From contig WHTQ01000002.1 in NCBI GenBank assembly GCA_009377645.1, positions 1 to 64,000 on the forward strand: 64,000 nt of DNA. Direction: 5' to 3'. The notes beneath the pieces are model-generated. The model made no database searches and was not told where the DNA came from. It saw nothing but the letters and a program-made list of their open reading frames with translations. Positions 48,574 to 51,402 of this stretch are shown piece after piece (the first letter of the stretch is position 1; the number at the start of each line of letters is the position of its first letter). The position numbers and the translations under genes are program-made. This stretch comes from Micromonosporaceae bacterium (GTDB taxonomy: Bacteria; Actinomycetota; Actinomycetes; Mycobacteriales; Micromonosporaceae).

Positions 48574-51402
48574 TCAGAGCCCTCCAGTGGCCCGCTCGCG
48601 CAGCGCCCGGGCGTGCTGCTCCAGCGAGAACAGGTCGGCGGCCAGCGACAGGTAGGTCGCCTTGTCGGTCACCGGGTTGACCCGCTGCACCTTCGACTTC
48701 AGCTCCGCCACCCGCGCGTCGACCGTGACCAGCTCCAGTTTGGCAAGGGTTACCCCCAGGTAGTGCGGGTCCGGGTCGCCGTCGCGCCGCAGCGGCTCCA
48801 CCGCCAGCTCGTTGACCAGCGCGCTGGCGCCCAGGTCGACACAGGCGTCGCGTACCCGCTGCACCCACACCGGGCCGGAGGTGGCGCTGGCGCACCCACC
48901 CGCCTCCTCGATCGCGGTCCGGATCGCGGCATGCAGCGGGTGATGGTAGGCCGCCACGCCGAGCGCGTCGAACACCGGACCGGCCAGCACCGGCTCCTGC
49001 AGCGCCAGCTTGAGCGCCTCCCGCTCGACCAGCGTGGCCGGGTTGACCGTACCGGGGCGGGGGCGCGGCGGGGGCGGCGGCTCGGCGCCTCGGGCCGCCG
49101 CGGTGGCGACCGCCCGCAGCACCTGCTCGACCGGCAGCCCCAGGTCGCCGGCGAGTGCCCGGGCGAACTCCGGCCGCTTCTCCCGGTCCTTCACTTTCGC
49201 CACCAGCGGCGCCGCCCGCCGCATCGCCTCCACCCTGCCGTCCACAGTGTCCAGGTCGTAGCGCGAGATCACCTGCCGGAGCGCGAAGTTGACCAGCGGC
49301 TCCCGGCGCGCCACCAGGTCGCGTACCGCCGCGTCGCCCTTGCTCAGCCGCAGCTCGCACGGGTCCTGGTTGTCCGGGCTGACCGCGATGAAGGTACGCC
49401 CGACGAACCGCTGGTCGGACTCGAACGCGCGCAGCGCCGCCTTCTGCCCGGCCGCGTCCCCGTCGAAGGTGAAGATGATCTCGCCGGTGAACGCGTCGGT
49501 GTCCATCAGCAGCCGGCGCAGCACCCCCACGTGGTCGGTCCCGAACGCGGTGCCGCAGGTCGCCACCGCGGTCGGCACGCCGGCCAGGTGGCAGGCCATC
49601 ACGTCGGTGTAGCCCTCCACGATCACCGCCCGGCCCTGCCGGGCGATCTCCCGCTTGGCCTGGTCGATGCCGTAGAGCACGTGCGACTTCTTGTAGAGCG
49701 GGGTCTCCGGCGTGTTCAGGTACTTCGGACCGTCCTCGTCCTCGCGCAGCTTGCGGGCACCGAACCCGATCACGTCACCGGAGATGTCCCGGATCGGCCA
49801 CAGCAGCCGCCCCCGGAACCGGTCGATCCGGGAACCGGACCTCGCCTCCCGGGACAGCCCGGCGGTGATCAGCTCCTGGTCGGTGAACCCGCGCTGCCGC
49901 AGGTGCCGGGTCAGCGCGTCCCAGCTCTCCGGCGCGAAGCCGCAACCGTACCGCTGGGCCGCGTCCCGGTCGAAGCCCCGCTGGGCCAGGAACTCCCGCG
50001 CGCCCCGGGCGGCCGGGGTGAGCAGCTGCTCGGCGTAGAACTCGGCGGCGGCGGCGTGCCCGGCGACCAGCCGCTGCCGCTGCCCCTGTCCGGTGCGGGT
50101 GGGCGCCGGGCCGGCCTCCAGGTAGCGCAGCTGCACCCCGGCCCGGCTGGCCAGGTGCTCGACCGCCTCCACGAAGGTCAGGTGGCCGGCGTCCATGGCG
50201 AACGTGATCGCGTCGCCGCCTTTCCCACAGCCGTGGCAGTTGCCGGTGAGGATGTTGTCCTCCAGCACGAACGCGTGCGTGCCCGGAACCACCGGGCAGA
50301 AAACCTCCTCGACCTCGCCCAGATCCTCGATCGCCTCGACGCTCCACCCCCGCCGCTCGAACGACTTCTGATGGCCGAGGAACCTTCGCTGGTGCTCTGA
50401 GATAAGGAAGAACCCCTCTGGCAGATCCGATCCCATAAACGTCAACCGGTACACCGGCGTGGTGTAGCCGTGCTCGCCATTCGGCCGCTGGTAGTCGGCG
50501 AACCCGGTCCGGATATACTCGCGGATTCCGTAGGTACCGACGCCGATCCGCGTGCACAACGCCCGGACGTACTCGAGGTGCTCACGACGTGACGAGTTGA
50601 GCGAGATGCACCCGTCCGCGGCGACGTCGCCGTCAGCGGCGAAGTAGCCCGCCAACCAGCCGAGCAGATATGACTGCGACTCGTTCAAGGACGGCAGGTC
50701 GGTCTTGAAGTACGCGGGGAGATCGGCGACGATCACGGCGTCAGACCTGCTGTAGGTATGGTTGAGCGGGAACCATTTCAACAGCTCGGTGTCCTTGGTT
50801 CCGTAGAGCATCGCCTGGCTTCCGCGGTTGGCCAGGGTGCCGTCACCGAACACGATGCCCCGCGCGATCCCGAACGGTGACAGCCGGATCTCATGACCGC
50901 CATCGCGCGTTGTCAGCGACCGAGGAAACACAGACGCCAGCCGGTGGCCCGGCCGCAGCTGCTCGGTGGTTCGTTCCACCAAACGCTTGCGACCACCGCC
51001 GCCGCGGGCGAACCACCGGTGGTTGGCCGTGGTACGGATCGTCTTCTTCAGCCCGTTCCGGGTCAGCTGAAGCCGCACTACCGGCTGCTCGCCGAAGGAG
51101 TAGAACGGGGCGTCCACCCATCTGCCACCCGTCGTCATCACCCGGTGAGTTCCGCCAGCGAGTGAGCGGATCTCCCGTACGCCAGCCTCGGTGATCACCC
51201 GAGTGTCTCCGGCAAGACAGAACCACACATTCTTGTCGATGCGTACGGTGAACGACGGGGTCTTCTCGTCGTGGAACGGGCACAGCCCCTTCATGGTCTG
51301 CGCGCCGCCCGGTTTCAGGGTCACCTGCTCCGAGACCACGTCGACGATCGAGGTGCGCTCGCGTACCTGCGCGATGTCCTCGTCCCGGATCCGTCCGGCC
51401 AC
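48574..51402 (-). CDS. dnaG: DNA primase DnaG, interrupted in frame by an intein
   Basis: CPFHDEKTPSFTVRIDKNVWF..(intein)..CHGCGKGGDAITFAMDAGHLTFVEAVEHLASRAG.., TOPRIM AVIVEGYTDVMACHLAGVPTAVATCGTAFG, FDGDAAGQKAALRAF. Confidence 0.95.
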   Translation of the reverse strand: MAGRIRDEDIAQVRERTSIVDVVSEQVTLKPGGAQTMKGLCPFHDEKTPSFTVRIDKNVWFCLAGDTRVITEAGVREIRSLAGGTHRVMTTGGRWVDAPFYSFGEQPVVRLQLTRNGLKKTIRTTANHRWFARGGGGRKRLVERTTEQLRPGHRLASVFPRSLTTRDGGHEIRLSPFGIARGIVFGDGTLANRGSQAMLYGTKDTELLKWFPLNHTYSRSDAVIVADLPAYFKTDLPSLNESQSYLLGWLAGYFAADGDVAADGCISLNSSRREHLEYVRALCTRIGVGTYGIREYIRTGFADYQRPNGEHGYTTPVYRLTFMGSDLPEGFFLISEHQRRFLGHQKSFERRGWSVEAIEDLGEVEEVFCPVVPGTHAFVLEDNILTGNCHGCGKGGDAITFAMDAGHLTFVEAVEHLASRAGVQLRYLEAGPAPTRTGQGQRQRLVAGHAAAAEFYAEQLLTPAARGAREFLAQRGFDRDAAQRYGCGFAPESWDALTRHLRQRGFTDQELITAGLSREARSGSRIDRFRGRLLWPIRDISGDVIGFGARKLREDEDGPKYLNTPETPLYKKSHVLYGIDQAKREIARQGRAVIVEGYTDVMACHLAGVPTAVATCGTAFGTDHVGVLRRLLMDTDAFTGEIIFTFDGDAAGQKAALRAFESDQRFVGRTFIAVSPDNQDPCELRLSKGDAAVRDLVARREPLVNFALRQVISRYDLDTVDGRVEAMRRAAPLVAKVKDREKRPEFARALAGDLGLPVEQVLRAVATAAARGAEPPPPPRPRPGTVNPATLVEREALKLALQEPVLAGPVFDALGVAAYHHPLHAAIRTAIEEAGGCASATSGPVWVQRVRDACVDLGASALVNELAVEPLRRDGDPDPHYLGVTLAKLELVTVDARVAELKSKVQRVNPVTDKATYLSLAADLFSLEQHARALRERATGGL
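50239..51219 (-). other. 327-aa intein with LAGLIDADG-type homing endonuclease inside DnaG
   Basis: N-terminal CLAGDTRVITEAGVREIRSL (block A), TTANHRWFAR (block B), GIARGIVFGDGTL and YLLGWLAGYFAADGDV (LAGLIDADG-like), EVFCPVVPGTHAFVLEDNILTGN followed by C+1 (blocks F/G). Confidence 0.93.

Follow-up and report, generated by a model that had tools for sequence, protein, structure and literature searches.

A putative mobile intein carrying both Cys1 and a class 3 Trp-Cys-Thr triplet interrupts the zinc ribbon of a Micromonosporaceae DnaG primase

Class 3 inteins are defined by a Trp-Cys-Thr (WCT) triplet, and the Cys at position F:4 is their first nucleophile (PMC5222942, PMC3196547, PMC7664689). 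The strict definition excludes inteins starting with Cys1 and was the one applied in a survey that counted 1701 inteins of class 3 (PMC7891396); as that survey was defined by the absence of Cys1, a clan of inteins having both Cys1 and WCT falls outside its count. Class 3 inteins are usually followed by Ser or Thr at +1, the Cys+1 exception as of 2016 being Bvi IcmO (PMC5222942). The class 3 inteins MP-Be DnaB, Msm DnaBi1, Mch DnaB1 and Bvi IcmO have Trp B12, Cys F4 and Thr G5 in common with the DnaG intein described here and several class 3 inteins are, like it, found in replication proteins of Actinomycetota, or else in phages. They lack Cys1 and most have Ser or Thr at +1, whereas the DnaG intein has Cys1, Cys+1 and a penultimate Gly. 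Inteins with mixed motifs, including the Nsp-JS614 TOPRIM intein with WCT and Cys1, were reportedly placed in class 3 by Tori and Perler in 2011. The Nsp-JS614 TOPRIM intein is 312 amino acids long compared to 327 for the intein in our window. One Nocardioides genome (G860) contained exactly one match to the intein family and this lay in DnaG at the same Cys; this is probably the Nsp-JS614 TOPRIM intein, DnaG being a TOPRIM protein. An orthologue of the intein in the window has probably, then, already been studied biochemically. The class 1 homing inteins TliVMA, PI-PfuI and PI-SceI share with it the HINT and LAGLIDADG domains and Cys1, though at only ~11–17% identity. PI-SceI also has Cys+1, and we know of no WCT triplet in any of the three. 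Inteins in RtcB from two genomes (G174 and G256) carry WCT plus Cys1, are 44–50% identical to the DnaG intein with the same catalytic residues and likewise lie just before a Cys belonging to a metal-enzyme motif, CHHNY, but their host differs, being the RNA ligase RtcB.

In the window, that is the whole stretch of 64,000 nucleotides analysed, positions 48574..51402 on the minus strand form one open frame of 942 amino acids (GTG start, stop codon counted in), in which DnaG is broken in-frame by 327 residues. All features given below are on this strand. The N-extein, 51220..51402, comprises DnaG residues 1–61 with the zinc half-site CPFH at 41–44 and ends in NVWF. The intein, 50239..51219, runs from CLAGDT to NILTGN and forms residues 62–388 of the precursor. 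The C-extein, 48574..50238 with the stop included, supplies the remainder of the zinc ribbon (CHGC), the RNA polymerase/Toprim core and the DnaB-binding domain. Pfam recognised the CHC2 zinc ribbon (PF01807) in two stretches, together with DNAG_N, Toprim, DnaB-binding and LAGLIDADG_3 domains, and the precursor scored above the cut-off for TIGR01391. A dGTPase gene is found near dnaG and the host assembly has one dnaG copy. The zinc ribbon is thus interrupted between NVWF and CHGC. In dnaG alleles from the same genus the protein is unbroken at this point, VFY being followed directly by CHGC or CFGC, and empty alleles also occur in genomes of the same family. When an empty allele was aligned to 1D0Q, the junction Cys was the first Cys of CFGC and, by counting, Cys61. 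In the 1D0Q ligand assignment Cys61 is the third zinc ligand. The +1 Cys of the C-extein (50236..50238) corresponds to it, and both this alignment and the split PF01807 match agree with a CxxH..CxxC ribbon of the CHC2 type. The original prediction, that zinc is bound by the +1 Cys itself and that the ribbon needs splicing, is borne out by this alignment. Since the intein ends right before the third ligand, the zinc site as read from the sequence can form contiguously only after splicing. DnaG is essential in bacteria and only a single copy of the gene is present here, hence splicing should be needed for viability.

Several lines of evidence indicate that the insert is a genuine intein. The insertion keeps the reading frame and relatives have the corresponding empty allele, blocks A, B, F and G are present with a terminal Asn and a Cys at +1, and the predicted fold is HINT. 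Matches to splicing-domain models were weak and under the cut-off (PF14890, E=0.006; TIGR01445, E=0.015), and a search of the PDB by sequence gave no significant match; the identification is settled by the homologues, the invariant motifs and the fold. The N-terminal part of the precursor was modelled using AlphaFold2 with a 33-sequence alignment, giving a pLDDT of 83 and a pTM of 0.72, with low confidence at the zinc half-site and the junctions (near residues 41–60 and 391–393). Compared with PDB structures, this model matched the HINT/homing-endonuclease inteins TliVMA (E=1e-13), PI-PfuI (5e-12) and PI-SceI (3e-10), with the DnaB, RecA and GyrA inteins further down. The endonuclease domain was recognised over the cut-off by PF14528, LAGLIDADG_3 (E=6e-6), and has two motifs with acidic residues, the first around Asp126 (GIVFGDGTL, 50827..50874) and the second, the YLLGWLAGYFAADGDV region lying within the LAGLIDADG_3 match, around Asp196 (50623..50670). 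These acidic residues are lost in some relatives. An intein in DnaG bearing a LAGLIDADG endonuclease, as originally predicted, is supported by the empty alleles, the splice motifs, the two LAGLIDADG motifs and the fold. Relatives whose endonucleases have decayed might suggest an inserted domain that does not splice, or an intein that has decayed within a non-functional primase, but the frame is open in a single-copy gene, the splice residues are retained in all 64 inteins found at this site and, for most close pairs, dN/dS is low in both domains. We consider such an explanation very improbable, and the intein is probably active judging from its sequence.

The class to which the intein belongs is less straightforward. 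It has Cys1 in block A (51217..51219), invariant in all relatives examined, the segment of residues 64–69 spanning T64, H67 and W69 (51013..51030), Cys308 at block F position 4 (50296..50298), which is the C of the WCT triplet and the predicted first nucleophile, and a block G of I-L-T325-G326-N327 (50239..50253) providing the T of WCT, the penultimate Gly and the terminal Asn. With W69, C308 and T325 the intein therefore has the Trp(B12)-Cys(F4)-Thr(G5) signature of class 3 alongside the Cys1 of class 1. C1, T64, H67, W69, C308, T325, G326 and N327 were found in 64/64 of the inteins at the zinc-ribbon site, these being 63 in DnaG and one in a plasmid relaxase/primase. For 43 distinct relatives on phage contigs, C1, T64, H67, W69, C308 and N327 were again invariant (43/43), with T325 in 36 and Cys at +1 in 41. 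The +1 Cys was present in 35/35 of the inteins compared. By the triplet the intein would be assigned to class 3, by the strict requirement for no Cys, Ser or Thr at position 1 it would not, and Cys+1 departs from the usual Ser+1 or Thr+1. Similarly, Cys1 satisfies the class 1 requirement for Cys, Ser or Thr at this position and the invariant Gly does not conform to the usual penultimate His. The original prediction noted this Gly correctly, but reading it as an anomaly did not hold up as it is a constant feature of the family and is also known in a mycobacteriophage RDF intein, where changing Gly to His raises precursor accumulation (PMC5050341). The original prediction also implied plain class 1 chemistry and overlooked the WCT triplet; this likely misreading of the splicing class is now corrected. 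The splicing chemistry, as far as the motifs allow, seems to combine features of two known types and not to be the standard one. The most useful point to emerge is that Cys1 and Cys F:4 are both strictly conserved.

Given Cys1 and a Cys+1 atypical of class 3, the first step could be of class 1 type at Cys1. Cys1 would then make a linear thioester, Cys308 would replace the Asp at F:4 as a helper and the WCT triplet would be a relic or precursor of class 3. Conservation of Cys1 at the zinc-ribbon site and among the phage relatives would be unexpected for an idle residue, the +1 residue is Cys as in class 1 inteins, and many class 1 inteins have a catalytic Asp at F:4 (PMC7891396). However, Trp B12 and Cys F4, by which class 3 is defined, show no more variation than Cys1, Thr G5 is likewise constant at the site, and the class 1 inteins of RecA, GyrA and NrdJ in the same genome do not have the W-C-T triplet. 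We regard class 1 chemistry as rather unlikely. It is a little more doubtful still that Cys1 and Cys308 are both needed, either as a three-thiol relay from Cys1 to Cys308 to the +1 Cys or as two interchangeable first steps, in which case published class 3 counts would, through their definition, have passed over a large clan with Cys1 plus WCT and, as the relay in DnaG would end on a zinc ligand, zinc status could set the rate of primase maturation.

The most likely account from the sequence is instead a splicing route dependent upon Cys308, with homing by the intein's own endonuclease. Taken as a whole, an intact mobile intein, active or recently so, at a widely used DnaG site, with splicing started by Cys308 and a homing endonuclease, is given a probability of roughly 0.7. 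We infer the order of the chemical steps to be as follows. Cys308 would attack the Phe61-Cys62 peptide bond first, as in the class 3 route, and the N-extein would then be handed to the +1 Cys, the zinc ligand. Asn327 would cyclise after this transfer, and an S-to-N shift would join CPFH..NVWF to CHGC to give the complete zinc ribbon. Cys1, always retained, may share in the first step. The endonuclease activity and the vehicles are also inferred: the LAGLIDADG domain would cut empty dnaG alleles, leading to homing, and phages and plasmids in which this intein family occupies the zinc ribbon of a primase would be plausible carriers.

Splicing of the class 3 intein DnaBi1 is blocked reversibly by zinc, which binds its initiating Cys F:4 (PMC7360933), while H2O2 produces a C48-C118 disulphide (PMC6195587, PMC7360933). 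By analogy with this mycobacterial DnaB, priming by DnaG might plausibly be gated by zinc or redox state, as originally suggested. Zinc or oxidants acting on Cys308, Cys1 or the +1 Cys would hold the DnaG precursor unspliced and priming would pause under metal or redox stress. The window intein does have the F:4 Cys of DnaBi1 and its +1 Cys is itself a zinc ligand, but its cysteines are C1, C204, C222 and C308, the splicing domain having no further ones, and none of these is a counterpart of the DnaBi1 partner Cys48. Furthermore, the intein is absent from most relatives, as expected for a selfish element, and there is no sign of regulation in the sequence. Conditional splicing of this kind is thus a tentative suggestion and an unlikely one, although zinc control of a primase would be notable if true.

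The distribution of the intein was examined in related genomes, across species, and in phages. Ten of 355 genomes of the family have the intein at this Cys of DnaG, and the nine besides the window intein are 55–78% identical to it; the remaining matches were two relatives in RtcB and one distant relative elsewhere. Within the window's own genome, a weak match on a second contig was considered as a second copy and rejected as spurious since it lay inside an alpha/beta-hydrolase-like frame. When 84,980 species genomes were scanned, 32 loci were found, every one in DnaG and at the same Cys, in Micromonosporaceae, Nocardiopsis, Nonomuraea, Nocardioides, Streptomyces, Actinoallomurus and others, plus Azospirillum. 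For Nocardioides the count was 26 of 216 genomes, 25 reading through at the site and one ending at a contig edge. Eight of 82 genomes of the Azospirillum family (Azospirillaceae) had the intein, seven in DnaG and one in a plasmid MobF relaxase/primase, while an even sample of 396 genomes of the phylum gave one other DnaG case only. The related actinomycete dnaG genes, where the original prediction had proposed to look, thus do have inteins at this Cys. In the literature on the exact site, only DnaG as a listed intein host was found.

Scanning viral contigs yielded 57 relatives. Four of these (L089, L091, L093 and L138) precede a CxxC Cys close to the N-terminus of primase proteins, their hosts being annotated by PHROG as 'DNA primase' or 'primase/helicase', with the CHC2 model matched only weakly and in L089. 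Other viral hosts include PAPS reductase and a DUF5906 protein. In a MobF relaxase/primase (L178) encoded on a 101 kb plasmid of Skermanella rosea, NZ_CP086115.1, the same CHC2 Cys is preceded by this intein. These phage and plasmid inteins, placed before the CxxC Cys of the primase zinc ribbon or its equivalent, are 42–48% identical to the DnaG intein and differ in their hosts, which are phage primases/helicases or the MobF protein. On the evidence of these sequences the DnaG zinc-ribbon Cys is a recurrent intein target, and the family of this intein is already widespread, with members in many bacteria and phages and in at least one plasmid. The suggestion that the site is an uncommon homing target is not supported, as inteins are found at this Cys in dozens of species from two phyla, as well as in phage primases and a plasmid relaxase/primase.

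DnaGs with the intein are interspersed with empty ones and a single clade was rejected (AU p ~1e-64). The extein tree requires nine changes of occupancy on the best tree, with at least seven forced by well-supported branches. The Actinocatenispora intein groups with Nocardioides inteins (support 98.7) while its DnaG stays with the Micromonosporaceae (AU p ~1e-33 against joining Nocardioides). However, an AU test on the intein tree did not reject a Micromonosporaceae intein clade including Actinocatenispora (p 0.41), which leaves transfer of the intein into Actinocatenispora as a suggestion. Omitting Actinocatenispora, the Cys codon at +4 was TGT in 9/9 occupied and 2/20 empty Micromonosporaceae alleles, a link which on independent pairs was 5:0 (p 0.06) and is suggestive of very short co-conversion. 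No long co-conversion tract around the site was seen in window-by-window identity. The GC content of the intein is 64.5% compared to 73.8% for the C-extein.

Purifying selection is apparent from the dN/dS of close pairs, ~0.05–0.10 in the splicing domain for most pairs and 0.04–0.16 in the endonuclease domain. The endonuclease has decayed in some copies (L025, L043, L045 and L056), the splice residues never being lost, and natural mini-inteins of 145–154 amino acids (L050, L171, L172 and L173) have no endonuclease and retain the splice motifs. The simplest account of the patchy distribution seen in these sequences is a selfish homing element. A single site in an essential replication gene thus offers a natural series, from empty to full, endonuclease-decayed and mini-intein alleles, that covers two phyla and has phage and plasmid relatives at an equivalent site. 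Because this series is well sampled, the homing cycle and the co-conservation of Cys1 and the internal Cys are directly testable.

A few further observations were made. Two Winogradskya DnaGs (L022 and L025) are near-identical, but dS is 0.73 in the intein endonuclease and 0.14 in the splicing domain, as if the endonuclease part had recombined. The DnaG and the intein recorded for 'Glycomyces fuscus' (L026) are nested in Nocardiopsis in both trees and the record may be misnamed. In one single-contig genome (G006) dnaG is split into two overlapping frames, either by a frameshift or a sequencing error. On viral contigs, the intein L110 is followed directly after LTGN by a second intein-like start, CLPAEEEIVTRDGIKPIGELAGTVQ, possibly giving two adjacent inteins.

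Other inteins were also present in the same genome as the window. RecA has two, one in the P-loop, starting CLTAD and ending SHN between GPEAGGK and TTLAL, and a second starting CMSY and ending VHN between VMFG and SPETTSGG (contig C153, L051 and L054). More were found in GyrA, ribonucleotide reductase and a radical SAM protein (contigs C190, C153 and C61; L052, L053 and L055). The radical SAM intein is followed at +1 by the third Cys of the CxxxCxxC Fe-S motif, so that here too a metal-ligand Cys forms the junction.
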